Source: Apus apus
Taxonomy: Eukaryota; Chordata; Aves; Apodiformes; Apodidae
Reading direction: 5' to 3'
DNA length: 64,000 nt
Assembly: GCF_020740795.1 (NCBI RefSeq)
Contig: NC_067312.1
Coordinates: forward strand, 9,504,748 to 9,568,747
The position numbers were made by a program, and so were the translations under genes. Below, piece after piece: positions 833 to 62,586 of the stretch. Positions within the stretch are counted from its first letter, which is position 1. The number at the start of each line of letters is the position of its first letter. The notes below the pieces were generated by a model. The model was not told where the DNA came from, did no database searches, and was given only the letters and a program-made list of their open reading frames with translations.

Positions 833-1058
833 AAAAGGCAGTAAAAACCAGCAGTCCTACCAATGTCACAGTATTTAGTGTCAGATTCTGCCTTCCTCTA
901 TAAGTAGCTCCTAGGAACAACCCTAAATAAATACATACAATTTACTAGAAATGGTAATATGTTGAATGTAACTGCATGAAACAGTGACTGATTTATATCC
1001 AGGAACCAACAGATTAATAACCATAGATTTATAGTAAAACATATTTTTATTTAAATAC

Positions 1059-1274
1059 CTCTTCCTTCCATTTAGCAGGTCATAAAGCTGTCCACAGTAG
1101 ATCTCATAAAAGCTGATCAAAACAAGGAGATCTTTTCTTGACTGTGATGTTTCCAGGTGTCTAAAGATGTCCTTGGCAGCCAAGGCGTAGAGTCCTGGGT
1201 TCCGGTGAGTACCCAGCATAGTGTAAGTCTTGCCAGCTCCAGTCTGCCCATATGCAAAGCAGGTTGCATTGCCT
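1059..1274 (-). CDS. KIF24: KIF24 coding exon with motor P-loop
   Basis: The exon follows an acceptor ending in TTCACAG and stops at a GTATTT donor (216 nt, entry and exit phase 2). It encodes [20 protein letters not shown] and continues to DLLNGRKR. The Walker A motif GQTGAGKT is intact, and the segment [16 protein letters not shown] is the conserved kinesin beta-strand and loop that follows it. Confidence 0.95.
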
Positions 1275-9275: not shown

Positions 9276-9289
9276 CTTCAAACTAAAGT
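8665..9289 (-). CDS. KIF24: KIF24 first coding exon (SAM domain and linker)
   Basis: The acceptor is TTTCTTGTAG with exon start at 9289. The first ATG is at 9275, giving [20 protein letters not shown], which matches the known KIF24 N-terminus and so fixes the start. The exon ends in [12 protein letters not shown] plus a split codon before GTAAAA. The SAM part ([20 protein letters not shown]) is highly conserved; the middle of the exon is Ser/Asp/Glu-rich and diverged. Confidence 0.95.
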
Positions 9290-11835: not shown

Positions 11836-12965
11836 AATCATAGAATCATAGAACTATTCAGGTTGGAAAAGCCCCTTGGGATCACCGAGTCCAACCATCA
11901 TCTCTACAAAGTTCTCCCCTAAACCACATCCACCAACACCACATCCAAGCGACCCTTAAACACATCCAGGGATGGTGACTCAACCACCTCCCCTGGGCAG
12001 ACTATTCCAGTGTGTAACCACTCTCTCTGTGAACATTTTTTCCCTAATGTCCAGTCTAAACCTCTCCTGTTGCAGCTTGAAGCCATTCCCTCTGGTGCTG
12101 TAGCTAATGACCTGTGAAAAGAGACCAGCACCAACCTCTCTACAGTGACTTTTCAGGCAGTTGTAGAGACTGATGAGGTCTCCCTTCAGCCTCCTCTTCC
12201 TCAGACTAAACATTCCCAGCTCCTTCAAGTGTTCTTCACAAGATTTATTCTCTAGGCCCTTCACCAGCTTCGTTGCCCTCCTCTGTACTCGCCTCCAGCA
12301 CCTCGATATCTCTCTTGAATTGAGGGGCCCAAAACTGGACACAATTCCAGGTGTGGCCTCACCAGTGCTGAGTACAGGGGGACAATCACCTCTCTACTTC
12401 TGCTGGTCACACTATTCCTGATACAAGCCAGGATGCCATTGGCTTTCTTGGCCACCTGGGCACACTGCTGGCTCATATTCAGCCACTTGTCAATTAGAAC
12501 CCCCTGGTCCTTTTCTGCCAGACACTTTCCAGCCACACTTCCCCAAGCCTGGAGTCTTGCCTGGGGTTGTTGTGGCCCAAGTGCAGGACCCAGCACTTGG
12601 CCTTGTTGAAGCCCAGACCATTAACATGAGCACAATGATCCAATCTATCCAAGTCTCTCTGTAGAGCCTCCCTATCCTCACGCAGATCAACACTCCTGCC
12701 TAGCTTGGTGTCATCTGCAAACTCACTGATGATGCACTCTATGTCCTTATCAAGATCATCAATAAAGACGTTAAACAGAAATGGTCCCAACACTGAGCCC
12801 TGAGGAACACCACTTGTGACTGGCCCCAGCTGGATTTGACTCCACTGACCACCACTCTTTGGGCCCAAATGTCCAGCAATTGCATGATCCAACAGCTCGT
12901 GTGCTCATGCAGGCCATGAGCAGCCAGGTTTTTCATGAGAGTTCTATGGGGACTCCTTCCTCTTT
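11836..12965 (-). mobile_element. CR1 LINE, 5'-truncated, about 1.1 kb with reverse-transcriptase remnants
   Basis: The 3' terminus (tandem AATCATAG units) is at 11836. Minus-strand reading frames show [14 protein letters not shown] and FADDTKLG, the palm motifs of CR1 reverse transcriptase, followed by [12 protein letters not shown]-type C-terminal sequence. Frames are broken. It lies in KIF24 intron 1. Confidence 0.92.
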
Positions 12966-13398
12966 CATATCAAAGCCCAGGTCTTATTACCTGCAAAGCT
13001 GTGGGTAGTTTCACTGAAAAAGATTGAGACAAAAGCCTAAGACTTCTTAAAATAATTGTATACAATATATTTTGAGAAAGAAGTGAGTCAGATTGAGAGT
13101 ATAATTCTCCATGAGCACTGAGTTACAAAGTCAGATAGTTTCAGGCCTGTGAAAAACTTCACTTAATCTCTGTTACAACATCACTTGTAATTCTTCTGCT
13201 GTTCTGTGGTTGCTCTTCTCATTTTAGCTATCAGAAAGACTCAGCTTCACTTCAAAATTTTCACTATCCACTCACACAAGGAACCTGCTTTGCTATTGAC
13301 AAAAAAATGCTGAAGCTGCTCAGTGGAACAGTGAAATCAACAAAGTCCAGAGCATCTTTACTAACACACAGGCAAGAAGAGAGGGAGAAACAGCTACT

Positions 13399-13960
13399 CA
13401 TAGGATCACAGAATAATTTGGGTTGGAAAGGACATTAAATATCATCTAGTTCCACCCCCTCCTGCATGGGCAGGGACACCTCACACTAGACCAGGTTGCT
13501 CTGAGCCCTATCCAGCCTGGCCTGGGCAACCTGTGCCAGTGTCTCATCACCCACAGAGAAAAGAATTTCTTCCTAATGCCTAATCTAAATCTCCACACTT
13601 CCAGGTTTAATCCATTCCTGCTCACCCTATCACTCCCTGCCCTTGTAAAAAGCCCCTCCCCAGCTTTCCTGCAGCCCCTTCAGGCACTGGAAGGTGCTAT
13701 GAGGTCTCCCTGGAGCCTTCTCTTCTCCAGGCTGAACAGCCCCAAGTCTCTCAGCCTGTTCCCATAGCAGAGCTGCTCCAGCCCTCTCATCATCTTCGTG
13801 GCCCTTCTCTGGACTTGATCCAGAAGCTCCATGTACTCCTTCTGTTGGGGGCTCCAGAACTGGACACAGCACTGCAGAGGGTGTCTCACAAGAGCAGAGC
13901 AAAGGGGAAGAATCCCCTCCCTCAACCTTCCCTTAATGGTGGCACACCTCACTGCTGGAG
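13399..13960 (-). mobile_element. CR1 LINE 3' fragment
   Basis: It starts with GGATCACAGAATAATTTGGG and runs through the 3' UTR to the end of ORF2 (minus frames with [18 protein letters not shown]). It is 5'-truncated and lies in KIF24 intron 1. Confidence 0.9.
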
Positions 13961-15652: not shown

Positions 15653-16256
15653 GTGGCACCAAACATTCAGCTGCCCATTAGAAGGGGTGCCGAAGCACCC
15701 CCTTTTAAAGCTACAAGGAGCACAGCCGAATACGAGCAACAGATAAAACCCTATCGTTCCAGCTTTGAAAAAGTAGTGAGAGAGGAGGAAATACTTCCAC
15801 TGCGAACTGGCAACGGTTTTGCAGCTGGAGCATCACGCAGGTCTTCTGGCAGCAACGCTCCCACGTCCTTTGCTACTGGACATAACTGATCAACGCAGCA
15901 AAACGCTGGGATTTCCCCCCCCCAAGACAAGACCGCTTTGTCTTTCAACAGAGTATTCTTCAACCGGCAAGAGGCTGCTATTTTTTTATAATCACGGCTA
16001 CACGCTAAGTATAGCCTGGTGACCTCAGCAGAAGAGACCCCATCCCACAGCTGGTCCCCGACAACTGCTGTGAAACAACAGCTGCGTGGAAACGGGAAGT
16101 GTCTCATATTCGACCGCAAGCCAGGAAAACAACCCGCGAGTTATCCTGGGATGCTGGTTATTTGAAAATTGTGCCTGAGCTTGTCCTGCCCGTAAGCCCT
16201 GCCAAATGGCTCTCGGCATTTATTTTATAGCTGTATCAAAAAAAAAAAACAGACCA

Positions 16257-16282
16257 CCCCCCCCCCCCCCCCCCCCCCCCCC
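16257..16282. repeat. Poly(C) run of 26 bases next to an A run
   Basis: An uninterrupted C tract directly follows a 12-base A run (16238-16249) at the edge of the CpG island. The complementary strand would be a G26 tract. Length in such runs is error-prone. Confidence 0.9.
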
Positions 16283-17290
16283 GGGGATGACACGCGCCCA
16301 CCGGACTTCGCCACGCGGGGATGTCCAGCTCCCCTCGCTGCGTTTAGCCCCCCAGGCTGAGGAACTTTACAGCTTCAACCCTCGGAAGAAGGGGAGCAGG
16401 GCTGAGGGGCACCCCCCCACCCCCACCCCGCCGCGCGCGGGCTCCCCTCTCACTCTTCCCTGCGCTCTCCCACCTCCTCCTTCTTCTTCCCGAAAGAGGG
16501 GGCAGCCCAGCAGCCCGCAGGCAGAGGGAAGCCGCGGCACCCCCCCGGGGCGGGGGATACCCACGAAGTCCCCCGGGAGACCCCCCCCCCCCGTCCCCCC
16601 GCCCGGGGCCGGCACTCACCGGCGCGGCGCCGCCCGGCAGCAGCCGCTAGGCCGCGTCTCCATGGCGACCGCGCCTCTCCCGCTTCAAACGCCCGCGCGC
16701 GGCCGCGCGCCGCGCCGCCCCACCAATCCGGGCGAGGGGAGGGGGCGTGTCCCGGCAGGTGAGGAACCAATCCCAGCTCTGCTCGGGCCCGGAAGGGGGC
16801 GGAGCCGAGAGCGCGGCGGAAAATGGGAGGGGGGGGGGGGAGACGGGACGGGGAGGGGCGGAGCTACCGGCAGGGGCCGTTCCCCGCTGTGATTGGCTGG
16901 CGGTGCCGTCAGTCAGGCGCCGGGCCCCGCCCACCCCGGCCGGAAGCGGTGGAGCGGGGCCTGGGCCGGGCCTGGCGGGGCTTGGCGCCGGGAGCCGGGT
17001 GAGCCGGGAGCCGGACGGCGCCGCGGGGCTCGGGAGGTGTGTGTGGGGCTCGGTGCTGGGCGCTGGCAGCGCGGGACGGGGCGCGGCGCCCGTCCCGGGC
17101 CGTCCCGGCGGGAAGCGGGAGCTGTGCCGGGCGCTGCCGGGCTCCGCAGCGCGGGCTTCTCGTGTCTCCGGCCTCTTCCCGGGAAGGGCCCGTCGCGCTG
17201 CCCGCGCGGCCTGCGGGCTGCAGCTCTCGTCCCGTGAGAGGCGTGTGCCTTCCCCTTCGCGTGCGGCTCGTTGTCAGCGTGTGCGCCAGA
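16270..17290. promoter_or_regulatory. CpG island, bidirectional promoter KIF24/NUDT2
   Basis: About 1 kb of very GC- and CpG-rich DNA separates the divergent KIF24 (-) and NUDT2 (+) genes. It holds a CCAAT at 16723-16727, another at 16767-16771, an inverted one (ATTGG) at 16892-16896, and GC boxes such as those at 16741-16745 and 16853-16860. On the minus strand the sequence TTTGAA lies at 16684-16689, just upstream of the likely KIF24 start; this is the CHR core of late cell-cycle promoters. A plausible donor for a NUDT2 non-coding exon (GG followed by GTGAGC) is at 16999. Confidence 0.75.
16620..16685 (-). other. KIF24: Probable KIF24 non-coding first exon with a short upstream ORF
   Basis: On the minus strand a strong donor (CCG followed by GTGAGTGCC) lies at 16618-16619 inside the CpG island, in the right place and orientation to splice to the acceptor at 9289. 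The exon contains an ATG at 16663; spliced to 9289 it would read 16 codons and stop at 9283-9285, before the KIF24 ATG at 9275. The 5' end of the exon is not defined by the sequence, so the upper coordinate is approximate. Confidence 0.6.
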
Positions 17291-17304
17291 GCGCTTCGTT
17301 TTGT

Positions 17305-17535
17305 ATCACAGAGTGATGTCAAGCCTGGACAGCGGAGAGCCTGCCCTTTGGCAGGGGCACCTCCCGCCGGACCGGGTCGCTCCGAGCCCCATCCAACCTG
17401 GCAATGAACACTTCCAGCCACAGCTCTTTCATCTTGAAACTGTTCCCCCTCGTCCTTACGCCCGTGTAAAAATTCCCTCCCTAGCTTTCCTGTGGCCCCT
17501 TCAGACTGCTGAAAGGCTGCTGTATATTCTCAGCT
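17305..17535 (-). mobile_element. Old CR1 LINE fragment at the edge of the CpG island
   Basis: Diverged CR1 3' sequence (GGCAGGGGCACCTCCCGCCG, then CATCCAACCTGGC, CCCTTCAGACTGCTGAAAGG). It is inserted in the NUDT2 5' intron immediately beside the promoter island. Confidence 0.75.
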
Positions 17536-18048: not shown

Positions 18049-23692
<5,644 letters not shown>

Positions 23693-30400: not shown

Positions 30401-33400
30401 AGCTCTTTTCTGGTCCCTGGAGTGGAAGAAGGGAGAGGAGGAGAGGATGGAGGAAGGAATTTAGTGTGATTTTCAGGTTTCAGTTCTGTGAAGAAGCTTC
30501 ACAAATGAAATCCTGAAACCACCTTCCTTCTCTTAAGGGAGTAAATGAAAGAGAGAAGCAGACCTGACCATGAATTGTCAGTGGTCAGTCAGCAATGAGC
30601 TTCACTGGCCATCTGACAAATGATGACAGTCACATCTTGGCATGATGACCAGGCCTTTGTCATTAGCCTGGTGTCCAACACCTAAAACTATGACAGGACC
30701 AGGGTTTCTGCCATTTTTGTGTCCGGTCTCGGCAGAGGGCAGTGAACACTCAGGGAGTCAGAGATTCAATTATTTCTAGCAGAGGCCAGGGCCTTAAAGC
30801 TGGTAATATAAAACTGAATTTTTATGATCCTTTGATGTAATCTTTTGGCTGTTCATGCATTGGGAGGGCAGCACTTTAACTGCCTCCCAGCACTTGCTGT
30901 GTTCATGAGTCTCTTTAAGGTTACATCAGGCACCAGGAGCAAGGTTCGCTTTTGAGGATCATGAAAACATGAGATGAAGGTTAGAACCATGGTTTCATTA
31001 GTGGCAGGAGCACTGTTGGGGTCTGACAGGAGGTAACTGTGACATGTTGCTTAGAAACTGAAGCAACGATTTCTCATTTCAAATATAGCAGCTCCTTAAA
31101 AATTAATGAAAGTATGAAAGAGGCTTTCAGCTGCCTCCAGTTTTCTTGTTACCAAAAAAAAAAAGTGACATCACAAAGTACCAAAAGCACCTTCAAAAAT
31201 TCAAACATCTGATTTTATGAGACTTCTTTAGTTGCTTTGTACTTGGGATGCTCAAGCAATTCCAACCATTCTTAGCTCTGGGCACTGATTCAGATGAACT
31301 TTCCAAAATACTTGACTTTTGCCTTTCATGAGAAAGGCAGCTGCAGTTTAGAGACCTGATCCTGTAAGTTGGTAGGTCCTTTCTGGAAAAGACTGAACAG
31401 CAACTACTGGAAGCCAGATGGGGCCAAAGTGACCATGAATTAGAATGATGGATGCAAGCCTGACGTTAGGTGGCTTGGATGACACCTAAGGTTAGATGTT
31501 ATCTGGTGCTAAATCTACCTCATCTTACTTTCATAGATCCACACACTTGTGTCTGCAGCTCCTTGCGTTGGTCCACTAGGCCTTGGAGCTGCTGTCCAGC
31601 CAGCAGCACAGACAGTTTCATCCGCTAAAGTCTTCCACCTGCTTAATTTGTCCTTCTCCCTTGAGACAAAGACCTTATGGTCTCCTTCCTTGGTGCTGAG
31701 GTGGAAACCCAAGCTCTGCAGGGTCAAGTGTCCCTTCTTGCTGCACGTCCATGCTTGGCGTTCCCAGTCCCCACAGGGCTCTAGCTTGACCAGAGCGAAC
31801 TCCCGTGTCTTGTGGGCTGTCAAGCACTGCTTTGTTTGAAGGCTGATGATGGTCCTGGTGGTGGGCTCCCAGCTCCACTGCTGTGTCGGGGAGCGTGCCT
31901 TGCAGTTGCTCAGGCTGATGCTGTTGGTCTCGTGGTGGGAAATACGGATGCACTTTTCCAGCCGGCTGTTCCTTATGAGGAAGCCTTGTCCCTCTGCTAC
32001 TGCAGTACAATTAGAGCACGGTTTAGTACTGTGCATGTCTGAAGCAAACCTGTCTTCTGAGCTCCAGACATTGTAAATGCCCCAGGGAAGGGGAGATGCA
32101 ACCCACCAGTCCTTTCCTGGATGGGCATGCCTAGAGAAACCATTCTCCAGCTTTCTAATCCCCCAGAATGACATTACTTTGGGTATGCAAATAGCCAGGA
32201 ACAATACCAGAGAAAAACAACAAAGACATAAGAAACTCGTGTAACTAGTGGGGAAAAACTCACCATCCTCAAAATGTTGTACTGTTATGAAATATCAACT
32301 TATATATATTTAATTCAATATTTCAGCTGCTTTAAATAGGTACCCGTCCTTCCCTTCCTCCAAAATAACTGGATGGTTTGGGGTTTTTTTGTCCATCTCT
32401 ATGTGGATCAAATCTTATGGAAAAGCAACTGAAACCCCTAAATTCCCCAGGTCCTATTCATCTGGGGCCAATTAGGCCACCTTGGGCTACTGTTTCCATC
32501 AAGTGGCTTCTGGTGATACTATGGCAATACTGGATTAAACCATGCGCCATCAAAAGTCTGGGAGTACTTGACTGACCCAGCTCATCTAAGTATTGAATCA
32601 AACTTGGATTTACCTCACCTGACACTGGTCTGTGCTCCCCAGACATGAAGGTGTCATCTTTAAGGATCTCTTTGTGAGAGAGAGACATTACAGCTGGCCC
32701 ACAACAGACACACAGTTTTAAGCAACTTCCATGATTGTTTGTTGCTTTTAATAGCAATGGGTCCCAACGTAGCTGGATGGATATCATCCTGTTAGCTGGA
32801 CAGTTGCTCCCATTTTCAGTACAAAATCACCAGGTGTGGCCTGAGAACATTCTGAGCAAAATGTTAAATGCTAAACCATCTGTCACTGACGTGGATGTAC
32901 CTCCTGCTGTGTATTTTATGTCTGAGGGATAGAAATAAAAGTTTCAAGTTTCTGCACATCCTGGGAAATATTTAAATTACAATTAACATGTAGTAACTCC
33001 CAGCTTTTGCAGTGGCTTTTCTTTTGCCTCTTTTCCCCAAGAATCAGTTATAAAAGCCCCATCAACTTACAGTATTGAGCACAGAGAGTAAGAGGAGAAT
33101 GAAGAGTGATGTTAGACAAGAACACTGATGTTTATCTAAACAGCAGTTTCTGCAGCTTCCCCTCCCAAAGCAAAGAACAATACTTTTCCCTGGCAGTGAG
33201 TATTTGGCTCAGTACCTGTAAAAACTAATGACAGTGTAAACAGAAGCTGATACACAATACCAAGTGTATGGACAATAGCTTAAAAGAGCTCTTACGTCTT
33301 CTCTCAGGAAATTCTAGGGGTCTGCTAGATTAATAGTGCCTGGGGGTTGTTACATCAGAAACAGCTCAGGGCTTTCTGCTCAGCCTGCATGGGGAGAGGC

Positions 33401-36400
33401 AGCCAGAAACCACAGCGCAGCTCCTGCCCTGGCTCTGAGATGAGGATGGATGTGTCCACACTGGGATATTAAGTTTCATGGACCTATGATAGCCACTGAT
33501 CCAGGCAATTCCTGCCAAGCCCATGTGCCTAAATGGAGATGAAATTTTGGGGAGATCTGTGGACAGCCTGTAAGTCCTGTCCTCTTTACCCTTTATTGTG
33601 GGCTGGATGGAGGAAAGGTCTTTGATGAACCTTGGGCGTGAGTTTCTGCCAGCTTCCAAAGGCAGGAGAAATGTCTCATATATAATCTTCTATAAGATGT
33701 AGCAAATGCAAAGGGATTAATACAATATCCCCATCATGTTTTTTATAGGATCTGGAATCACAGAATCACAGAATGGTTAAGGTTGAAAGGGACCTTAAAG
33801 ATCATCAGGTTCCAACCTCCCTGCTATGAGAGCAGGGACACATCACGCCAGACCAGGCTGCACAAGCCTCATCCAACCTGGCCTTAAACAATGCCAGGGA
33901 GGGGGCTTCCACAGCCTCCCTGGGCATCCTATTCCAGCCCCTTACTACCCTTGTGGTGAAGAATGTCTAACCTAAATCTTCCCCCTTAGTTTAAAATCAT
34001 TACCCCTAATTCTATCACTATCTTCTCTGATTAAAAGCCCCTCCTCAAGGCCTCTTTCAAGTACTGGAAGGCCACTATAAGGTCTCCCCGGAGCCTTCTC
34101 TAGGCTGAACAGCCCCAACTCTCTCAGCCTGTCTTCATAGCAAAAGTGCTCCAGCCTTCTGATCATCTTCATGGCCCTTCTCTGGATCCTATCCAACAGA
34201 AAGATACACTTACATGCCCACTGCAAACAAGGATCAACAGCCAGTGACCTCGGCCAGGCCATCACATTTTCCAGGATTGTCACCTGTTTACTTCATCTTA
34301 ACTGGGAGAAACCCATTTCCAAAGTAATGATCTGAGCACTGCACCGAAGTGTAACAGGGGAACACGAGGGTTGTACTGGGGGTCAGAGAACGTAGCTCCT
34401 GACCCCTGTATCCTGTTTTCAGCAGTGGGCTGGACCCTCCTAGCATCTGCTAATAGGACAGGAGTGAAACGAGTAAAGAGCTCACTCAAGACAGCAAGGA
34501 CACCAGTGCTTACTTCCTAAAAATGTGTCAGCCAGTTAAGAGAGCATCACTGAGTATAGTTAAAATGTGGGTTTTTTTCCCATATACACTACATTGTGTG
34601 TACTCTGAAGTTCAAAAACTGTTTTATTGCTCAATCAGTATAACGGATTCCTTCTGCAGCTCCACTGTGGCCAACTTCAGTTTTGATTATTGTGAAAAAT
34701 TCTGTCCCATCAGCATACTTTATTACTTTATTATTCACCCATTTTACCAAGGTCACTGTGCCAAACAGTACTGATGTTTATTGGTACCTGCTGACACCTT
34801 CACCCTCTGCTCTGATCACTGTCAACTCATTCCACCTCTTTGTTCCAGCCAGTGGGTGAAATCTCTCCTCCGTGATAATGGAGTTTAAGCACCTTGGTCA
34901 AGTATCTTACCAAAACCTTTTGCAAACACAAGCACAAGGTCCAGATGAGCTTACCACGTTTATGTGCTCACTGATGCTATCATGGAAGTCAGGCATTCCC
35001 TCTTCAAAACCTGTACTGACATTTCTGGTCTTTAGCCCCCTGTCTGCAGGTTCTGTTACTTGTTTCTACTGCCTTGCCTGATGCTGAAAAGAAACCCCTG
35101 TAATGCAGCACACTGGTGCTGAGACTACTTTAAGACATAGTTTACATACTCCTTAGAAGTTTAAAAAACTGTCCTCTTTACTTTCCTGTAACTCTGTGTG
35201 AATGCCATCTGGGCTGGACATTTGTCACAGATTTTTTAACTTCTTTTTCCCCCCACCCACCCTAAACTTCCTCTGTTTACAATTGTGTTTGATAACACTC
35301 TTCAGGCTGCAGAGAGTGGCTGCTGTGTGAGGACCTCCCCAACCATGTCTGAAGTGACATCCATCCATCCATACCAGCACCAATAACCTGTTCAAGCCTT
35401 CTAACCCTGCCCTGCCATGCCTGCCCTTCTTACATTTTCATCAGTTAGCTACTGGCCTCCTTACCCCCATCACGTTTCTATTTCAGATACATGTAAAAAA
35501 TTCTATTTTAATGTTTTTATGCTTTTTCTTATCATAATTTTTATTATGTGTTTTGTTATTAAACGTGCCAAGATACCTGTTTTTTTTGTTTTTTGTTCTT
35601 GTTTGGTTTGTTTTTTTCCCTTTTCCTGACTTGGCAATGACTGTCCACCTGAAAGTTACATTTAAAAAATTCTTTTGAAGAATATTGCTGTTTTACTCAG
35701 CCAGCAGATTTAGTTTTTGTTCTCTGTGTGCAGTCCCTGGTGATACACACTCCCTTCTAAAGAACTGCTGTGTTACCTGCATGTTATCATCAAGCATCGT
35801 GTTCCCCTATGTTACCTACCAGCCTTTTGCCCTTTTAAGCTGCCCCTTTCTACCAGCTTTGCTGGGTTTATGCAGATCTCAGTTTGCAGACTCACCCTAC
35901 CAAAGGTTCATGGCAGCCTTTCTGCAACAGGAATACGTATGAGCTGAGGATATTAGTTTAGCTCCTTAGTTGCATATGACATCAGGTTTTTAATATTTTT
36001 TTTATTTTCACACCACATTTCAGGTCTGAAAGTATAGTTACCATTTTACAGCTTGGGAAGAGAGTTCTACCTCAACTTTGCTTGGCTCAACATAACACGA
36101 GAGGGTGACAGCAAAGCTGGGGCCATAATCCTTCTCTGAACTGTGGTCTGAGTGTCTTCCCTGCTGACAGCACTGCCTCCATGAGGCTGAGCTCTCTGTA
36201 CAGTCAGGTGGCAACAGCAGAGTGTTCCTTGTGATGTTTTTTGTCATCCGTGCCAAGATGTGAGCCCAGGTCCATCCACTACCTATATGTTATTGCTTTC
36301 CTCAAATTGAATTGTTGCTATCTAATTGAGCAGCTTACAATTAGATGCAGGTAACTGTCAGTAACAACTGCACTGCCCCACACAGTCATAAGGGGCAGAC

Positions 36401-50628: not shown

Positions 50629-52725
50629 ATGGAGAGTCTGGTGACCCACCGAACAGGAAAACATGGAAAAGCTCAGAAGAGGGATACTGAAAAAATGCAT
50701 TTGCTCAAAAATGCCACGCCAGTGAAGCAGAAGCCCTCCAAGGAGCTGAGGCCCATGCTCGGGGCCATCTTGCTGGGCCTCATCCTCTTCATTGCTGCCG
50801 TGGTGGCCTGGTGCTACTACACGGTGTCCCTGCGGAAGGCGGAGCGGCTCAAGACGGAGCTGATGGACCTGCGGACAGACGGCTTCGTCATCAGGAACCA
50901 GCACGGGGAGGTGGTCTTCCGCCTGGCCTTCCGCTCGGGCCGCCTCGACCTGGAGTCGTGCTCCAAGGAGGGCGAGATCCTGAGCTGCACGCGGTCGGGC
51001 AGGGGGCCGCTCAACTTCTTCATCCAGACGGTGAAGCCCAAGGACACGGTGATGTGCTACCGCGTGCGCTGGGAGGAGCTGGAGGCCGGCCCGGCAGTGG
51101 AGCACACCATGTTCTGGGAGGACGCCCACTGGTACGGGGGCTCGGAGATGAGCACCCAGCACTGGCCCATCCGCCTGGCCGGCTACCAGGAGCCCGTGCC
51201 CTACGTGACGAGCGACGTCTACTCCTTCCGCGACAGCTTTGGAGGCATCCTGGAGCGCTACTGGCTCTCCTCCAAGGCGGCGGCCATCAAGATCAACGAC
51301 TCCGTGCCCTTCCACCTGGGCTTCAACGCCACCCAGCGCGCCCTCTTCTTCCAGGCCCGCTACAAGGACTCTCCCTACAAGCCCCCGCCGGGGCAGCAGC
51401 CCTTCCCCGAGCTCAGCTACCGCGTCTGCGTGGGCTCCGACATCACCTCCATCCACAAGTACATGGTGCGCAGGTACTTCAACAAGCCCTCCAAGATCCC
51501 TGCTGAGAACGCCTTCCGGTACCCCATCTGGTCCACCTGGGCACTCTACAAAAAAGATATTGACCAGGATAAAGTTCTGGATTTTGCAAGAAACATTAAG
51601 AGGCATGGTTTTAACTGCAGCCACATTGAAATTGATGACATGTACACACAAGCCTATGGGGATTTTGACTTTGATCCTGTCAAGTTCCCCAACGTGACAG
51701 AGATGTTTGCAAAACTAAGGGAGGATGGGTTTAAAATAACTTTGTGGATTCATCCTTTTATACACACAGATTCCTCCAATTTTGGTGTGGGTATCGAGCG
51801 CCAGCTGTTCATCAAGGAGCCATCTGGGCGGCTGCCAGCCATGGTGGAGTGGTGGAACGGCATCGGGGCCATCCTGGACTTCACCAACCCTGCAGCCCGT
51901 GACTGGTTCCAGAGCCACCTGCGCCAGCTCCGACACAAATACGGCATCTCCTCCTTCAAGTTCGATGCGGGTGAGACCAGCTACCTGCCCAAGCAGTTCA
52001 GCACCTTCCGCCCGCTCTCGGACCCCAGCATCTGGTCACGGCGCTACACGGAGATGGCCATTCCCTTCTATGAGCTGGCCGAGGTGCGGGTGGGCTACCA
52101 GTCCCAGAACATCTCCTGCTTCTTCCGCATCATTGACCGCGACTCCGTCTGGGGCTACGAGCTCGGCCTCAAGTCCCTCATTCCCACTGTGCTCACCATC
52201 AGCATGCTAGGGTACCCTTTTGTACTTCCAGATATGATTGCAGGAAACTTTCTTCCCAACAAGACAGATGGGGCAGTGGAGATCCCTGACCGGGAGCTGT
52301 ACGTGCGGTGGTTGGAGCTGTCTGCCTTCATGCCCTCCATGCAGTTCTCCATCCCACCCTGGCTCTATGACAAGGAGGTGGTGGAGATTGCACAGAAGTT
52401 CACAGAGCTTCACGAGTCGCTGGTGGCCCCACTCCTGCTGGAGCTGGCCGGGGAGGTCACCGACACGGGTGACCCCATCATCCGTCCCATCTGGTGGATC
52501 TCACCCCGTGACGAGGCTGCTCACAGGATCGACTCCCAGTTCCTCATTGGAGACACCCTCATGGTGGCCCCTGTCCTGGAGATGGGCAAGCAGGAGCGTG
52601 ATGTCTACCTGCCAGCGGGCAAGTGGCGCAGCTACAAGGGGGAGTTGTTTGAGAAGACGCCAGTGCTGCTCACGGACTATCCTGTCGACCTGGACGAAGT
52701 TGCCTATTTCCTCTGGGTTTCCTAG
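50629..52725 (+). CDS. MYORG: MYORG paralogue, copy 1 (inverted orientation): GH31 myogenesis-regulating glycosidase
   Basis: An uninterrupted reading frame gives 698 aa from the ATG at 50629, or 676 aa from the in-frame ATG at 50695; the choice is open. MYORG is a type II ER membrane glycosidase of family GH31 (reported activity: alpha-galactosidase), linked in human to brain calcification. A short cytosolic N-terminus is followed by the anchor ([18 protein letters not shown]) and the lumenal barrel. The nucleophile Asp (SFKFDAGE, codon 51964) and acid/base Asp (RIIDRDS, codon 52135) are 57 residues apart, as in human. It differs from copy 2 mainly at three active-site loops: here WIHPFIHTD and [11 protein letters not shown]. 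It lacks the MYTFLP start and one NSS sequon. Orientation is opposite to human MYORG relative to KIF24, so this is probably the derived copy. Confidence 0.93.
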
Positions 52726-52741
52726 CAGGGGCCTCCACCAG
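50717..52741 (+). repeat. Inverted duplicate, left arm (MYORG copy 1)
   Basis: This arm pairs with 60533-62558 in inverted orientation. Positions add to 113275 over the whole reading frame, so no indel separates the coding parts. Similarity begins at ACGCCAGTGAAG and ends about 16 bp after the stop codon; outside it I see no match between the flanks. Confidence 0.9.
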
Positions 52742-53065
52742 CTGTGCAATGGTCTCATGGATTAATGAACCAATGACTTCAATGACCTAGTAATTGTAAT
52801 AGTTTCTAAAGTAGATATAGTTCAGTGTGAAATCTGAGGAAAAGACTGCCCCCTGTTTTGTTTGGCAGGTGCTGTAGAATATCTTAGGTATTAAAATATT
52901 TTGGATGCTGTGTTTGTTATTGCACTATGATATATAGAAACAGTCTCTGCTTGTAATCTTTCCACAGTCAGAAATGCCATGTGTGGTCCTGGTTTGTAAA
53001 GGAGGTTAAATGGTCTCCTTTGTTGCCCGCTTTCACATCTGATCCCTTGAGATATTTATAATTTC

Positions 53066-54007
53066 ATAGAACATAGAATCACAGAATGCTTTAGGTTGAA
53101 AGCGACCATGACATTCCAACCCCACTGCCATGGGCAGGGACACCTCTCACTAGACCAGGTTGCTCCAAGCCCCATCCAACCTGGCCTTGAGCACTTCTGG
53201 TGATGGGGCAGCCACATCTACTCTGGGCAGCCTGGGCCACTGTCTCACCACCCTCACAGGAAATAATTTCTTCCTAATATCCAGCCTGAATGTAACTTCT
53301 TTCAGGTCAAAACTGTTCCCCCTCATCCCACAACTACATGCCCTTGTAAAAAGTCCCTTTCCAGCTTTCATATAGCCCATGCAGATACTGGAAGGCCACT
53401 GTAAGGTCTTCCCAGAGCCTCTTCATCTCCAGGCTGAATATCCCCAACTCTCTCAGCCTGTCCTCATAGCAGAGGTGTTCCAGCCCTCTGATCATCTTCA
53501 TGGACCTCCTCTGGACTTGCTCCAGGAGTTCCGTGTCCTTCTTATGTTGGGGGCTCCAGACTGGACACAGCACAGCAGGGGTGGTCTCACAAGAGCAGAG
53601 CAGAGGGGGAGAATCCCCTCCCTCAACCTGCTGGCCACACTTCTTTTGATGCAGCCCAGGACACGGTGGCCTCCTGGGATACAGGTGCACCTTGCCAGCT
53701 CATGGGGAGCTTCTCATCAACCAACACCCACAAGTCCTTTTCCTCAGGGCTGTTCTCAATCCATTTTCCCCCCAGCCTGTACTTGTGCTTGGGATTGCCC
53801 TGACTCAGGTGCAGGACCTTGCACTTGGCCTTGTTGAACTTGATGAAATTGCCCTAGGCCCACCTCTGAGATCTGCCAAGGTCCCTCTGGATGGCCTCCC
53901 TTCCTTCCAGCGTGTCATCCACACCACATGGCTTGGTGTCTTCTGCAAAGTGGCTGAGGGTGCACTCGATCCCACTGACCATGTCACTGATAAAGATGTT
54001 TAACAGT
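53066..54007 (-). mobile_element. CR1 LINE, about 0.94 kb, 5'-truncated
   Basis: It starts CATAGAATCACAGAATGC, continues through the 3' UTR and reads CR1 ORF2 remnants on minus (TLQKTPSHVVWMTRWKEGRP). It lies about 340 bp past the MYORG copy 1 stop, probably in or after its 3' UTR. Confidence 0.9.
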
Positions 54008-54124
54008 AAATTTCACTTACTTGGTGAAGCAGGCAGCTGCATCAGAGTACTTTTTGTACAAAGAGCAGTCTGATTATTCTGAAGAGGAAGGCACCCAATT
54101 TTCAGCCTGCATATCAGATGGGTG

Positions 54125-54235
54125 CTGGTGCAGGTGCAAGGGGAGTTTGCATCTTCCATGACAGGGCAGAGGGGTTGGAACCAGATGATCTCTAAGGTTT
54201 CTCCCAACCCAGAGCACTCTGTGATTCTGTAATGC
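54125..54235 (+). mobile_element. CR1 LINE 3' end fragment, plus orientation
   Basis: GGGGTTGGAACCAGATGATC through GCACTCTGTGATTCTGTAAT is the sense CR1 end. With the minus copy just before it, it forms an inverted CR1 pair. Confidence 0.8.
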
Positions 54236-55402
54236 CATTACTGGTGTGGCAACGGGCATGGAAACCCCTCTTTAGTGTAAGGAAGTGAAAGGGAAAGCAA
54301 TGCTCAGTCTGGCAGCGTTCAGGGCTAACAGACCATCTCTGAGTCCTTACCATGTACTTTTTCCCACGCCAGAACAGTGTTTTCCACTGATGTACCTCCC
54401 CCAAGGATGAGAAAGAGTTTCTGAATATTTTTATTTCAATTGCTGCTTTGAAGCCCCAAGGGGTCCTTGACAGCTGGGATCAGGGCAACTGGAAGGTCCC
54501 AGGGGGGCCTCAGCAAAACTTTGGCAATTGTGGCAGTAAGAAACTGAGTCTTTCTAAAAAGCTGGTGGCCTTGGTTCTGGGGAGAGGTGGGAGAGCTGTG
54601 TTCCAGCCACCTCACACCCTCCTCTGCCCCTGTCATCAGTGTGCTCTGCATGGGCTCTGCTGCCTGCCTGCATCCCTCTTGGGATGCTTCTTCTTAGAAG
54701 CACCACTGAGGCTCCCCGCAAACTCCGGGGATGATAGGAGCTGCCTGGTCACATTTGGCTGTAGAAATCTTTTCCCCAAATTCCCACCCCTTTCCAGTCT
54801 TTTCCCCCCGTGTCTTTCCCTGCTGCCACAGCAATCCTGCAAGAAGGTGGCACTGGGGCTGCCTCTTGCACCCTCCTGCCGTGCCAAGGCCACACGCTGC
54901 CAGAGGGACATTGTTCTTGTCTCGCTAAGCTTCAGTCAGGTCTGGTTTTTGTGCTCACAGTGTTGAGCAAGATGTGTTTGCTGGATGTGCTGGTGACCTG
55001 GGACTCTACCCCAGCCCATTGCCCACACCATTCTGCCTTTTTTTTCTGGGGTAGGGGAGGAATTTTGTTGCCCTTGATCCCTGATGATTACTAAGTTAAA
55101 ACCACCAAGCCCTACTGGCAAAAATTAGTAAGTAAAAATACCTGCCTTTCTCTACTTGTTTTCTGGGATTTTGCATCAGCCCAGGCCATCTTTATGGCTC
55201 TCTTGCAGCAAGGAACCTGCAGGCTGGCAGCTCCTGCTTGACTTGGGATGAACTGCCATTGAAGTTGTTTTTCTCCTGGCCATGTGCCCAAAGTGCCTCT
55301 GCTGCTGTCAGTCTGTCCTTTCACTTCAGTCCTTCCCAGCCTTGTGCTCTGCCTGTCTGCCTGTTGTGTTTGTTTTATTTGTTTGTTTTTCTTCTTACTT
55401 TT

Positions 55403-55408
55403 AATAAA
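55403..55408 (+). terminator. Candidate distal poly(A) signal, plus strand
   Basis: AATAAA in TTTTAATAAAAGCTG, 2.7 kb past the copy 1 stop. An ATTAAA nearer the stop (about 52892) is an alternative. MYORG mRNAs are known to have long 3' UTRs, so either is possible. Confidence 0.25.
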
Positions 55409-55923
55409 AGCTGTGATTTTGACCAGGGATGGACACACTCCTGACAAAGACCATGTGGGTCAGCAGCCCTGCTGCTGTGAGCCATAGGTACCTTCTTGAA
55501 ATCTTGTTTGAAATTAATTGGGCTTTTGCTGTAGGGCCACTGAGGTCTGCACTTTGCCATTTACACTTCTCCCTGCACGGAACCAGCTGTGGACGTGTGT
55601 TCAAGCACTGCCACTTAGCTGGGACCCAGCACAGAGCAGCCCCTGCTCACTCTCCCCACATCCCTGGTAAGCTTCGTGCACCCTCGCTGTGCCAGCTTTT
55701 TGGAAGGATGCAAACCAAACCCAAAACACAAATTCAAATATTCCAAGGAGGATTCCTGCTTTACTGAGGATTTGCTGTGAGGCTGCAGGTGCTGTAAGCC
55801 ACCAACCTGCCTCCACATCTCTAGCCAGCACCAGCTTCACCCCCTGCTCCAAGGTGAGCATCAGCCAAGTGTATGGATGCCGCCCGCAGCCAAGGGAAAA
55901 GTCAAAACGCTGGGAAAATGCCT

Positions 55924-55929
55924 TTTATT
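55924..55929 (-). terminator. Candidate distal poly(A) signal, minus strand
   Basis: TTTATT on plus equals AATAAA on minus, 4.6 kb past the copy 2 stop and about 500 bp from the plus-strand signal at 55403. It would mark the end of a long 3' UTR converging on copy 1. Confidence 0.2.
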
Positions 55930-56000
55930 GAAAGAGCAGAAAATCAATGTCCCTCTTGTCCCCCAGGCTGGGCTGTGTGTGCAGGCCAGGGTTAGTGACC

Positions 56001-56066
56001 ACAGAATCACAGAATTATTGAGGCTGGAAAAGACCTCTGAGATCATCACATCCAGCCTAGATGGCA
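56001..56066 (-). mobile_element. Very short CR1 3' fragment
   Basis: CAGAATCACAGAATTATTGA and GAAAAGACCTCTGAGATCAT identify the terminal part of a CR1 3' UTR; it is truncated after about 65 bp. Confidence 0.85.
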
Positions 56067-59000
56067 CAAGGCAGGCAGTGGTTTGTACAGCAAGGAAAGG
56101 GCTAGAAAAACACTGAGTGGGGGAAAGGGGGTGGCATGGGGCAGGGCAGGCTCCTAAATGAGTTTCACATGCTCCATTTTGGACTCCCATAGCCATAAAC
56201 ATCCACCTCATCCCCTCCCAGTCACCGGCATCATCTGGAAAGGGGGACACCTGGGTCTGTGGGTACAGCCAAGGCCCAGATGAACCTTCTGGAGTTCCCA
56301 AGGGAAGCCAAGAGCAGGCTCTTCTTCAGTGCTTACAAACAGTCCCAAAGCATGTGACTTCTGAGAGTAGTGTGGACTGGCAAACCCCCCCAGAGTCAAT
56401 GCTGATAGGCCCATTTGGGTGGATATCAGCAGAAGGAGGGGTGTGATGGTCTGGTCCCCACCCGTGGGGGTGAATGCAGCATTGGGATTCACCTCAGCTT
56501 GGTCTTTTAAAGGCCAGCCCTAGGACACAGCTATTCCCTTTGTTGGGAACAAGGGAGGGCAATATACGACCCTCCACCAGTGGGTCTCCTCCATATCCTC
56601 ATCTCCTGCCACCACTGCAAACAGAAGAGCACAGGGGCTGCCAGCTCCTCTCTTCAGAACATGTATCAAAGCTGCAGGCTGCAAGCTTTAAATAAACCCA
56701 AGTGTAAATGAAAAAAGCTGCAAATATGCCCGAACTACCAGCCCCACATACTTGGTACAGATGGACTTGGTTACACTTCCTTTTGTTTTCCAAAGTTTTA
56801 TAACAATCAAGGCAATTCATGATACAGTTATTTTCATAACAATTTTCATAACAATTAAGAATTAGAAAAGTGGTTAAAAACAAATCCACCAGCATTACAG
56901 TCCGACATAGGAGGAGAAGTGCAAACACAAGCATCCAGAAAACCTGACACAAGACAGTGCAAGCTTCAAAATTCAATTGCACAGGCAACATGTTTACTTG
57001 CTGTTCAGACACAATCCACCACTGACTGGGGTGGAAAAGGCAGAACCCAACCTAGAAACTTCTTTCAGGGCTTCTTCTTGGATAAGTCAAACTAAACCCT
57101 GTTGTGGCCAGTGACCCATGGTGTAAATTGGAGAAGTTTCCCCAGTTAGCAGTTACGAAGGTGTTGGTGTACAGGGTGCTTGTGGTCTGCGAGGTAACAG
57201 AGGTCTTTGAGACCTGAAGGGCTATAACATAGTGTTACAAAATAGTGGTTCTGTTAAAAGGTTGGATGGAAGTGGCACCTAGAAGCCTTTGAAATAGCTT
57301 GAGGCAGCACTGCCGAGCCTGTTCCTGACATGGAAGAAAGGCTTGGTGCCATGGACCCACAGAAAGCTGAACATATGGAACTGCTCTTCAGCATCATCCT
57401 TCACACCCTCCCAACAGCTTTATCCTTCTCCTTCCTGGAGCACTGAATAGACCTGGCTCCGTACACCCTAACTACAGCATTTATAAAAATAAGGGGACTC
57501 AATAATCTCATCCATTTATTCCCATGGTTAAATAAAAAGAAAATTAAAACTTTGATAATAACATTATTTTCTTACAAGGGGAGGGGAAGGAGGATCGTGT
57601 GTCTAACAGGGAATTTCCTCTATGACCTTTCTGAAACCACCCAAAACCACTGCAAAGGGATTGAAGGCACTGATCTGGCTCTTCCCACCATTTTCATAGT
57701 AAAAGGATACTAAAGGGACCACCGTGTTCCTCTGCATGTAGCCTCACCCTTCCTAGTGAGGGATGCGACAAGTGGCTCAGCAGAGACAGGGAGGAGAAGA
57801 CATGCAACATCCCCCCGTTGCGATGGGATCCTTCCCATGAAGTCCTGTGCCCAAGGTCCCTCATCTTCGCTGGCAGCTGAGCTGTGCAGCAATGTCTCCT
57901 CCATGCAATGAATCCTATACCAAGAGAGGACAAGTATTTCACAGGCAAAGGCTGAAAGAGCTGGAGCCCTCAGAGGGGGCTGGAGAAGCCCACTTCACAC
58001 CCAATCCTCTTTGCAGGCGGTGGTCAGACTTGTGTCCAGGAGCTCCTCCATCTTAACTCCCACCCTCTAGTCAAAAGGCCAAATCCTGCCAGTGCCCTGG
58101 TGACTGACACTGGGGCTCCAGGATTAACTCCTTGCCAGAAGGTGCCTGTAACTTGTAACACAACCACTATTCACACTGGTGGCAGGAACCAAACCACCCT
58201 TTGTATCTAAAAGCCACAAGAAACTGGCTTTGGGACATACTTGTCCTCCTGCTGGGCAGGGACCTATAGGTCTCACTTTAAGCACAAAACACCAATTTAT
58301 GCAAGGCAGATTCAGACCACAAGGGATGCTCCAAAGAACCCCTCAAACTGGACTTCCTCACTTCCTGACTATAAAGGCACTTCTGATTTTCTCCCAAACA
58401 TCTACATTTCTACTCATGGACCCAATCATAACCCCCAGGTCTAGCACATCTTTTCTGCCTCCTGCAATACCCAGAGCAGGAGGTGGGCTGTGAGAAAGAT
58501 CTTCACTGATAGCCAACCCTACCCAAAACAGCTCCATCTCCACAGCTGGCAGACTCGTGCCAGACCGTTACTCAGCCCAGACACAATCCTATGGGAAGCC
58601 CTACAGATGTTGAGGTCCCTTGGGCTGGCCTGGGCAGGGTGTCCCAAACCTTCCTAGCCAATGCAGTTCAGCTCTGCAGGTGCTCATTAAAAATTCAGGG
58701 CTGAAACATGCTCCCAACCAGGGCACAGCCAGGAATGTCCCCCCCTGGGAAGGGGGGCTGCCAGACTTCAGTCCTGTTTGCTCTGTCCCAGAGTGAGAGA
58801 TTGTCCATGGCTCTCTGTGAATGCATCTTTCCATACAAAACCAAATGGGAAAGCTGGGAAAGGGGCATCCCTGCAGCTCTACCCTGGCTGCTGGGGACTT
58901 GGGGTGCAGGCCCATGTCATGCAGTGTCCCCTCCAGAAGCCTTCCACAGCAACCCCACCTCCAGCACCACAAGCGCTGCCTGAAGAAGGCCCCTAATTCT

Positions 59001-59696
59001 CCTGAGGAGAGAGGAGGGCTGCTTCAGAGGAACCCTCAACAAAATCATCACCTCTAACCGCGACGTGACATGGGGATGGATATTATCTTATTTCATGGTA
59101 GATGAGAACATTTCTGCGGCTGCAATGAGAACAGCCTCTGGCACAGACCCCTCCATGCAACAGCTGGTGGTGTCCACCCACTGGCAAGCTGGCCAGCAGC
59201 AAACGTCACGGTCAATCCCAGACACGTGCTGCTTGCTGGGTACTGGCTGTTCCCGGGGAAGCTCTGCACGTACTTCTTGAGAAGGGCTTTGCTCTAGGCA
59301 GTCTCTCGGCCAGCAACAAGCCTGAAAGCTCATCTGTCCTTAGAAACCAAAAGGGATGATACCAGCAAGAAAATAATGTAATTAAGCTGCACCATAAAGG
59401 CATTAAAAAGACTAAGGGGACATGCTGGTATGAACGGGGCCACTCTAGGAAAGGCAATGTTGACACCCAGGATAAAACACACAGGGAAGTGCCTTGCAGG
59501 GGACATTAAACCAGGGAGGAGGTGGGATGCAGCTGCCTCAGCAAGAGCTGCACAGCCCATACAGATAAAACACCTGGACGCCTCTGTAGTAACATGGCCT
59601 GCCTGATACCTGGGGAAGTGAGAACATGGGGCAAGTGTTAGCCCAGTACCACACTAGACTAAAGAGAGAAGGTAATATGTATGTGTATAAAGAAGC

Positions 59697-60075
59697 ACAG
59701 AATGTTAGGGGTTGGAAGGGACCTCTGAGATCATCTAGTCCAACCCCCCTGCTAGAGCAGGTTGCATAGGATGGCATCCAGGCAGGTTTTTAATATCTCC
59801 AAAGAAGGTGACTCCACAACCTCTCTGGACACCCTGTTCCAGTGCTCTGTCATTCTCTCAAAGTAAAGGAATTTTTCCTTATGCTCAGATGGAACCTCCT
59901 GTGTTCAACTTCATGCCTGTTGCCCTTGTACTCTTGATAGGTACCACTGAATAGAGTTTGGTCTCATCCTCTTGACATTCAAACTTTAGATATTGATAAG
60001 ATCCCCTCTCAGTCTTCTCCAGGCTAAACAGACCCAGGCCCTTCCTCGTATATCTATATACCTCACTAGTTTCTT
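59697..60075 (-). mobile_element. CR1 LINE 3' fragment
   Basis: CACAGAATGTTAGGGGTTGG, GGATGGCATCCAGGCAGG and GATCCCCTCTCAGTCTTCTC match a CR1 subfamily different from most others in this window. It lies within 500 bp of the MYORG copy 2 stop codon. Confidence 0.85.
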
Positions 60076-60532
60076 TTCTGCTCTTAACTAAGTCCTTTTA
60101 AATATATCTGCCATACTGAAAAATGTAAGGCAGACTGTGCAGCAGCAACCCTCCCACATCACCACACCCAGGCCCAGTGCTGGGTGCTCCCATAAGATCA
60201 GCAACGTTTCCACTGCCAATAAGCAACCTCAGCCTCTTGAAATCCATGGGAACTGAACCAGTACTGAGCTTATTATGTGTCTGCAAACAGACTGGCAATT
60301 CCTTCCTGACTTTAACAGAGAAAATTCTGCATACCCTAACACAACTGGAGTCTTCCACCTGCCCCAAATTTAAAAAAAAGGGTACCCTTCCTCCAAATAA
60401 TAATAATAAAAAAATTACCCCAAGGACAGTGAAGTCTATTTAACTCCCTTCCTTATCCCCAATCTCAAATGAAATGTGCAATTAGAATTATTATTGTTAC
60501 AAAGTCCTAGGTAAGGCATGGTTATCCCCAAG

Positions 60533-62558
60533 TTGGTGGAGGCCCCCTGTTAGGAAACCCAGAGGAAATAGGCAACTTCATCCAGGTCGACGGGATAGTC
60601 CGTGAGCAGCACTGGGGTCTTCTCAAACAACTCCCCCTTGTAGCTGCGCCACTTGCCCGCTGGCAGGTAGACATCACGCTCCTGCTTGCCCATCTCCAGG
60701 ACAGGGGCCACCATGAGGGTGTCTCCAATGAGGAACTGGGAGTCGATCCTGTGAGCAGCCTCGTCACGGGGCGAGATCCACCAGATGGGACGGATGATGG
60801 GGTCACCCGTGTCGGTGACCTCCCCGGCCAGCTCCAGCAGGAGTGGGGCCACCAGCGACTCGTGAAGCTCTGTGAACTTCTGTGCAATCTCCACCACCTC
60901 CTTGTCATAGAGCCAGGGTGGGATGGAGAACTGCATGGAGGGCATGAAGGCAGACAGCTCCAACCACCGCACGTACAGCTCCCGGTCAGGGATCTCCACT
61001 GCCCCATCTGTCTTGTTGGGGAAAAAATTCCCCCCAATCATGTCAGCAGAAATGAAGGGGTACCCCAGCATGCTGATGGTGAGCACAGTGGGAATGAGGG
61101 ACTTAAGGCCGAGCTCGTAGCCCCAGACAGAGTCGCGGTCAATGATGCGGAAGAAGCAGGAGATGTTCTGGGACTGGTAGCCCACCCGCACCTCGGCCAG
61201 CTCATAGAAGGGAATGGCCATCTCCGTGTAGCGCCGTGACCAGATGCTGGGGTCCGAGAGCGGGCGGAAGGTGCTGAACTGCTTGGGCAGGTAGCTGGTC
61301 TCACCCGCATCGAACTTGAAGGAGGAGATGCCGTATTTGTGTCGGAGCTGGCGCAGGTGGCTCTGGAACCAGTCGCGGGCTGCAGGGTTGGTGAAGTCCA
61401 GGATGGCCCCGATGCCGTTCCACCACTCCACCATGGCTGGCAGCCGCCCAGATGGCTCCTTGATGAACAGCTGGCGCTCAATACCCACACCAAAATTGGA
61501 GGAATTGTAGTTTATGAAAGGGTGAGTCCATAGTGTGACTTTAAACCCATCTTCCCTTAGTTTTGCAAACATCTCTGTCACGTTGGGGAACTTGACAGGA
61601 TCAAAGTCAAAATCCCCATAGGCCTGTGTGTACATGTCATCAATTTCAATGTGGCTGCAGTTAAAATGGTACTTCTTGATCTTTTCTGCGAATCGCAAGA
61701 GTTTATCCTGGTCAATATCATTCTTGTAGAGTGCCCAGGTGGACCAGATGGGGTACCGGAAGGCGTTCTCAGCAGGGATCTTGGAGGGCTTGTTGAAGTA
61801 CCTGCGCACCATGTACTTGTGGATGGAGGTGATGTCGGAGCCCACGCAGACGCGGTAGCTGAGCTCGGGGAAGGGCTGCTGCCCCGGCGGGGGCTTGTAG
61901 GGAGAGTCCTTGTAGCGGGCCTGGAAGAAGAGGGCGCGCTGGGTGGCGTTGAAGCCCAGGTGGAAGGGCACGGAGTCGTTGATCTTGATGGCCGCCGCCT
62001 TGGAGGAGAGCCAGTAGCGCTCCAGGATGCCTCCAAAGCTGTCGCGGAAGGAGTAGACGTCGCTCGTCACGTAGGGCACGGGCTCCTGGTAGCCGGCCAG
62101 GCGGATGGGCCAGTGCTGGGTGCTCATCTCCGAGCCCCCGTACCAGTGGGCGTCCTCCCAGAACATGGTGTGCTCCACTGCCGGGCCGGCCTCCAGCTCC
62201 TCCCAGCGCACGCGGTAGCACATCACCGTGTCCTTGGGCTTCACCGTCTGGATGAAGAAGTTGAGCGGCCCCCTGCCCGACCGCGTGCAGCTCAGGATCT
62301 CGCCCTCCTTGGAGCACGACTCCAGGTCGAGGCGGCCCGAGCGGAAGGCCAGGCGGAAGACCACCTCCCCGTGCTGGTTCCTGATGACGAAGCCGTCTGC
62401 CCGCAGGTCCATCAGCTCCGTCTTGAGCCGCTCCGCCTTCCGCAGGGACACCGTGTAGTAGCACCAGGCCACCACGGCAGCAATGAAGAGGATGAGGCCC
62501 AGCAAGATGGCCCCGAGCATGGGCCTCAGCTCCTTGGACGGCTTCTGCTTCACTGGCG
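60533..62558 (-). repeat. Inverted duplicate, right arm (MYORG copy 2)
   Basis: This is the partner of the left arm. About 60 substitutions separate the arms over about 2 kb; about 48 of them fall within 61667-61723, 61506-61552 and 61021-61066. The 7.8-kb spacer is ordinary intergenic DNA with CR1 fragments. Confidence 0.9.
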
Positions 62559-62586
62559 TGAAGTTCTCGGGAAGGAAGGTGTACAT
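60550..62586 (-). CDS. MYORG: MYORG copy 2 (ancestral orientation): GH31 myogenesis-regulating glycosidase
   Basis: An intact 678-aa frame on the minus strand starts [20 protein letters not shown], matching the human MYTFLPDNFSPAK region, so the ATG at 62586 is well supported. The anchor ([18 protein letters not shown], about residues 24-43) and GH31 domain follow; catalytic Asp residues are at about 426 (KFDAGE) and 483 (IDRDS). The coding part is a single exon, as in human. Orientation relative to KIF24 and NUDT2 equals that in human, so this is the likely true orthologue. Loops read WTHPFINYN, human-like, but [11 protein letters not shown], where human and copy 1 have LPDM. The stop is TAA (TAG in copy 1). 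Coding sequence is about 97% identical overall to copy 1, and over 99% outside three islands. Confidence 0.95.

Follow-up and report, generated by a model that had tools for sequence, protein, structure and literature searches.

Introduction

Gene conversion that keeps linked duplicates alike while short stretches of them stay divergent is an already known process, of which we describe here a clear new case: a pair of MYORG-type genes in Apus apus. The pair lies within 64,000 nucleotides of contig NC_067312.1 (GCF_020740795.1, positions 9,504,748 to 9,568,747 of the forward strand), a stretch that we call the window and to which all coordinates below refer. In primates, conversion likewise homogenises the linked red and green opsin duplicates, whose divergence peaks at the residues that differ in function, as set out in the available sections of PMC3924837. 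According to the same sections the opsin pair is 30–40 million years (My) old and has one peak, in exon 5, with homogenised introns and a known function. The MYORG pair, in contrast, has three peaks within one uninterrupted coding sequence (CDS), is inverted, stems from an older duplication, and would differ in function between its two copies, A and B. In the copepod Tigriopus californicus, GOT1p1 and GOT1p2 likewise retain exonic islands of divergence despite conversion, and the islands themselves are rarely converted (PMC3728101, accessible part); those data concern populations of one species, whereas the MYORG pattern recurs across bird orders. The mammalian pairs BMP8A/B, DDX19A/B and TUBG1/2 are likewise more than 100 My old, form a mosaic of concerted and divergent parts, and include one inverted pair, and GC content at third codon positions (GC3) is likewise higher in their concerted parts, not significantly so for BMP8A/B (PMC2720389, as far as its available text goes). 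That text describes the mosaic by exon, whereas the MYORG islands are 46–57 bp long and lie within one CDS. Among the matches listed from the open-licence literature, we found no description of the MYORG pair, of a MYORG duplication in birds or of bird KIAA1161.

Results

Two inverted MYORG-type arms differ mainly in three islands

The two genes are convergent and their reading frames are intact. Copy A, a MYORG-like paralogue, is an open frame of 698 amino acids at 50629..52725 on the plus strand with a copy-specific N-terminus (residues 1–29); copy B, the canonical MYORG starting MYTFLPENF, is an open frame of 678 amino acids at 60550..62586 on the minus strand. They share a 97% inverted repeat of 2.0 kb, whose arms at 50715..52731 (plus strand, copy A) and 60544..62560 (minus strand, copy B) align without a gap, paired positions summing to 113275 as the first-pass annotation of the window had noticed. 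The arms differ at 60 positions, 48 of them inside three islands that together span 150 bp. Island 1 (51552..51608 on the plus strand in copy A, mirrored at 61667..61723 on the minus strand in copy B) holds 18 differences and 8 amino-acid changes, island 2 (51723..51769, plus; 61506..61552, minus) holds 14 and 5, and island 3 (52209..52254, plus; 61021..61066, minus) holds 16 and 5. These island boundaries and counts reproduce those of the annotation, as does the figure of 12 differences for the rest of the arms, where they are scattered; the length of that remainder, put at about 1857 bp, is 1867 bp. The longest identical run between the arms is 676 bp (50876–51551). In 100,000 random placements of the differences no 57-bp window held more than 12, compared with the 18 observed in one such window, and chance is therefore excluded.

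The same division is found at silent sites. Within the islands 18 of 53 codons carry amino-acid changes, and outside them there is a single change, T/A at residue 83. Among codons that encode the same residue in both copies, 15/35 differ in the islands as against 10/615 outside (Fisher 8e-15), and only 7 of 301 fourfold sites differ outside. Silent differences within the islands had been pointed out before and are indeed present, for example CTG/TTG at 51577, TTG/CTA at 51742 and GGA/GGG at 52243. Since the split at silent sites follows the islands, constraint at the protein level cannot explain the identity of the arms.

Both copies contain PF01055 and PF21365, the GH31 barrel and C-terminal domains of Pfam. 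The top PDB matches of copy A are 7qqf and 7qqh, MYORG entries by name, whose protein we take to be human MYORG. Among at least 120 protein matches its best, at 95–97% identity, are from birds, and bird proteins of 698 amino acids matching it are labelled MYORG or MYORG-like. Ten catalytic and binding residues with roles described in the available text of PMC9491548 (D213, W321, D353, D354, W426, K461, D463, R504, R517 and D520) are identical in both window copies (10/10). Both copies are by these features MYORG-type GH31 proteins, for which activity on Gal-alpha1,4-Glc would be predicted.

The two paralogue types are shared with lepidosaurs

Protein searches yielded birds, lepidosaurs, amphibians, mammals and fish (at least 120 matches per search), and 55 retrieved proteins were aligned with the two window copies. 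Two types of N-terminus occur among them. The B type, MYTFLPENF or close forms, is found in coelacanth, Xenopus, cobra, bird and mammals, being internal in the last, and the A type is common to bird A proteins and to those of lizards, snakes and geckos. The likeness between the bird and lepidosaur A N-termini was equalled in 1 of 2000 shuffles (11 bird and 12 lepidosaur rows). Copy B combines the MYTF-type N-terminus with B-type islands as in the cobra, which places it with the MYORG orthologues, whereas copy A departs from them in its A-type N-terminus and islands and in the replacement of Y397 and N398. Because the A-type N-terminus is common to birds and lepidosaurs and the B type extends from coelacanth to mammals, we read B as MYORG proper and A as an old sauropsid paralogue. 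The lepidosaur–archosaur split lies at roughly 280 My, and the presence of A-type genes in lepidosaurs makes the duplication, on this evidence, older than the first-pass annotation could have known. No crocodile or turtle A was found among the 120 matches listed per search, in a database that holds one representative per 90% cluster.

Islands and background record different histories

Lepidosaur A and B can be told apart at 22 background positions, and window A shows the B state at 22/22 of them, a figure that is partly by construction as window B helped to define the B state. The ten other bird rows with a full A N-terminus (Pezoporus, Columba, Melopsittacus, Cinclus, Catharus, Aptenodytes, Numenius, Turdus, Geothlypis and Cyanoderma) carry the B state at 19–22 of these positions, and in the same ten birds an A-type island 1 is present in 9/10, island 2 in 8/10 and island 3 in 7/10. 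Six other birds begin as B (Anas, Vidua, Pterocles, Molothrus, Campylorhamphus and Zapornia); among those with data, island 1 is of B type in 5/5, island 2 in 5/5 and island 3 in 4/5, Anas holding both island 3 forms. For a selected subset of 13 bird A and six bird B rows, ten positions beyond the N-terminus tell the copies apart; all ten are in islands, with 0/616 in the background. Geothlypis A and Molothrus B differ at 6/20, 4/17 and 4/16 positions of the three islands and at 11/543 of the background, and when the A proteins of Numenius, Pezoporus and Egretta (the last counted as A on account of its islands) are compared with window B, the island sites that differ are largely the same. The islands thus recur, mostly at the same residues, in the window species, passerines, a parrot, a shorebird and a heron.

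Five derived states are common to passerine A and B and absent from the other aligned birds, all of them in the background. One, 121S, is present in all eight passerine rows tested and the others (547N, 554N, 593Q and 679M) in some, with 554N and 593Q occurring together in the A of Geothlypis and Calcarius and in the B of Vidua and Molothrus. The presence of passerine-specific states at both loci indicates that conversion continued within passerines. Squamate A and B (Rhineura and cobra) differ at 152/614 background positions, only 8 of which fall in the last 140. Over those last 140 residues the squamate A proteins P0057 and P0134 show 8 and 10 differences from cobra B (P0019), the rest being strongly diverged. 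Judging from these proteins, conversion in squamates was apparently confined to the 3' end of the gene and separate from that in birds.

Separate trees of islands and background across birds had been proposed to distinguish copy-wise from species-wise grouping, and, run here on proteins, they gave in the main the predicted result. The island tree was built from 53 island residues in 38 rows and the background tree from 600 residues; rows with mixed islands (penguin, pigeon, Turdus, Cyanoderma, Glareola, Vireo, Tyto and Heliornis) were left out of both. In the island tree nine bird A and 13 lepidosaur A rows (lizards, snakes and tuatara) form one clade (99/95.9), the copy-wise grouping expected of a selected divergence peak, as seen with the mixed rows left out, and window B groups with the B proteins of cobra, Vidua, Molothrus and Zapornia (96/90). 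On the background, by contrast, a grouping of bird A with lepidosaur A is rejected by the approximately unbiased test (p-AU 2.6e-6). Birds there come together (96), as do window A with B (94) and passerine A with B (87), the latter two with moderate support and neither starred. A larger background tree of 51 rows pairs Heliornis with Zapornia (92) and window A with B (88). In the homogenised part, therefore, paralogues are closer within a lineage, both for the window and for passerines, as under concerted evolution.

GC3 follows the same boundaries. Outside the islands it is 535/616 (0.87) in either copy, and within them it is 15/53 (0.28) in A and 28/53 (0.53) in B (Fisher against outside 1e-19 and 2e-8). 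In steps of 15 codons it lies at 0.87–1.0 before island 1 and at 0.73–1.0 between islands 2 and 3, and is 0.33 in copy A at each island. A raised GC3 in the putatively converted part of both window copies reads as a conversion-like signature.

The islands lie in the catalytic barrel

Adding 17 to a copy A residue gives the published MYORG number, a relation checked on the ten catalytic and binding residues and on six sequons. Island 1 (residues 308–327, published 325–344) covers helix alpha1, which spans 330–342, and adjoins the loop with W321 that selects galactose (PMC9491548, available text). Island 2 (residues 365–381, published 382–398) ends on Y397 and N398; in the same text, Y397 bonds to E407 across the MYORG dimer and N398 is a glycan site near the interface. 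The end of this island reads H-T-D in copy A as against N-Y-N in B, and compared with the MYORG structures (7qqf and 7qqh), copy A lacks both Y397 and the N398 sequon. Island 3 (residues 527–542, published 544–559) follows the acid/base D520. The mapping places the islands in the predicted catalytic barrel, at helix alpha1, at the exit of beta3 by the dimer interface and in the stretch after the acid/base. The structure prediction for copy A is weak (mean predicted local distance difference test score, pLDDT, 60.8, with island 3 within a stretch below 50), and only the predicted helix 313–325 and strand 369–374 were used from it.

The glycosylation sequons at 346, 372 and 511 are present in 0/15, 0/15 and 2/15 lepidosaur A proteins and in 16/18, 18/18 and 17/18 bird A proteins, which resemble B in this respect. 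Loss of the N398 sequon affects 15/15 lepidosaur A and 15/18 bird A proteins, where four of the 18 rows (Egretta, Calcarius, Dasyornis and Nothoprocta) were assigned by their islands and are not independent for this site. Among B-type outgroups the N398 sequon is missing in 3/11 and Y397 is kept in 11/11.

Exceptions among birds

Several observations weigh against an ancient pair whose islands are protected from conversion. The emperor penguin A carries the B type at all three islands, pigeon A has a B island 2, Turdus and Cyanoderma A have a B island 3, and the islands of Glareola, Vireo, Tyto and Heliornis are mixed or partial. These B islands in A genes may be true conversions or short-read assembly chimeras; if they are not chimeras, loss of an island is tolerated. 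Of ten island positions diagnostic of lepidosaur A, five are in the A state in window A, three in the B state and two in another. Bird A does not separate from lepidosaur A in the island tree, and Anas B, the gene model with both island 3 forms, falls outside the B group. A single clade of all birds on the island data (p-AU 0.053) and a clade of bird A alone on the background (p-AU 0.066) are both unrejected at 0.05. Finally, low GC3 is also found in homogenised sequence: it descends to 0.56 at the 3' end of the gene, and the 37 codons between islands 1 and 2 (51609..51722, plus strand) are near-identical, with one difference, yet have a GC3 of 0.51 in copy A. We read this last segment as one in which conversion may have been rarer in the long term, since a tract spanning it would be likely to run into an island.

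The protein of Dasyornis broadbenti (P0031) is an A-like MYORG about 80% identical to those of other birds. It departs from the other aligned birds in 91 states; 19 of them also occur in three or more lepidosaur A rows, compared with a mean of 7.9 and a maximum of 18 in 5000 permutations. This is suggestive of an A copy that has perhaps escaped conversion. A search with this protein gave no other match above 81% identity among the 120 matches listed.

Sequence around the pair

Beyond the arms, over about 1.2–1.5 kb on each side, only short matches occur, the longest 57 bp at 81%, and we take these to be dispersed repeats. Flanks that cannot be aligned are consistent with an old duplication in which the non-coding sequence has since decayed. 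Related dispersed repeats, at most 84% alike, lie at 12175–12781, 13398–13928, 19485–20410, 33758–34199 and 53072–54009 and are presumably of CR1 type. Upstream of the pair there are coding pieces for a kinesin motor, a SAM domain and a NUDIX domain at 926–1312 (minus), 8664–9323 (minus) and 23354–23689 (plus), which we take to be KIF24 and NUDT2, presumably neighbours of human MYORG in this order; we likewise assume synteny with human 9p13 and linkage to the avian Z. A 259-residue open frame at 31518–32294 (minus) matches a ricin-type beta-trefoil lectin (PF00652, 3.9e-10). At 16179–17313, long overlapping open frames on both strands are rich in residues encoded by G+C, perhaps marking a CpG-island promoter.

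Discussion

We interpret the locus as two ancient paralogues that gene conversion has homogenised apart from islands that have been protected, most likely by selection, and from the sequences compared here we give this reading a probability of about 0.85. Its core of an ancient duplication, conversion of the gene body and long-lived islands is well supported. The first-pass annotation had likewise proposed an old duplication kept alike by conversion, and the protein trees, GC3 and the clade-shared derived states all speak for it. MYORG, an endoplasmic reticulum alpha-galactosidase, would have been duplicated into A and B no later than the base of the sauropsids. Recurrent interlocus conversion within the uninterrupted CDS would then have kept the bodies of bird A and B near-identical in each lineage, probably mainly by writing B sequence into A, while the N-terminus and the three short islands escaped homogenisation. 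Selection would remove tracts that enter the islands, most likely since the islands carry a functional difference between A and B.

The most serious competitor retains real conversion and dispenses with functional selection, the islands surviving passively as clustered mismatches that block heteroduplex formation. Clustered mismatches lower conversion according to the accessible part of PMC3728101, and passerine A–B differences around island 2 reach 383–386. However, the same three islands, mostly with the same residues, are found in distant bird orders, two of them fall at or next to named sites of the structure, and several genes have apparently been converted across an island. We consider such a passive barrier unlikely and prefer selection as the guard of the islands with fair, though by no means complete, confidence. 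Selection and tract ends had both been offered before as what guards the islands; the former is favoured here, if conditionally, and tract ends are less likely, given that distantly related bird orders show the same islands.

The near-identical body would also be explained if B had been duplicated recently and a third, diverged paralogue had then supplied short conversion tracts to A at three sites, and a diverged A-like bird protein does exist in Dasyornis. This scenario appears very improbable given that the N-terminus and islands of A share a single source, the lepidosaur A lineage, that the flanks cannot be aligned, unlike those of a recent duplication, and that clade-specific states are found in both passerine copies. 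Recent duplication alone was set aside in view of the old N-terminus and islands of A and the unalignable flanks. An assembly artefact, in which collapse or polishing made two diverged copies look alike, has prospects just as slight: at least one bird protein in the public record (Anas, P0016) has the look of a chimera, but the window copies have unique flanks, distinct N-termini and 12 scattered differences outside the islands, and proteins of several other species show the same pattern. Purifying selection alone, which would suit the conserved catalytic residues, has a negligible chance of having kept two old copies alike, because protein selection does not preserve silent sites to the extent seen outside the islands (7/301 fourfold sites and 10/615 same-residue codons differing).

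Beyond the preferred reading of conversion with selected islands, copy A might be a second sauropsid ER galactosidase with an assembly and a substrate of its own, in which island 2 uncouples the homodimer, islands 1 and 3 retune the sugar site and the rest is kept interchangeable by conversion. This is a tentative proposal, and the odds are rather against it. If true, the islands would constitute a natural map of the minimal residues that set the partner and substrate choice of MYORG.

The MYORG pair is unusually clean as a case of this process: both genes are open, the CDS is uninterrupted, the islands measure about 50 bp and the pattern recurs across bird orders. Dating by sequence identity would miss the age of the duplication by a wide margin, and GC3 may serve as a long-term record of conversion where identity serves as a short-term one. 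MYORG is a brain-calcification gene in humans and its natural substrate is unknown, as stated in the available text of PMC9491548; the residues that resist homogenisation in birds point to what may matter for its choice of substrate or partner.

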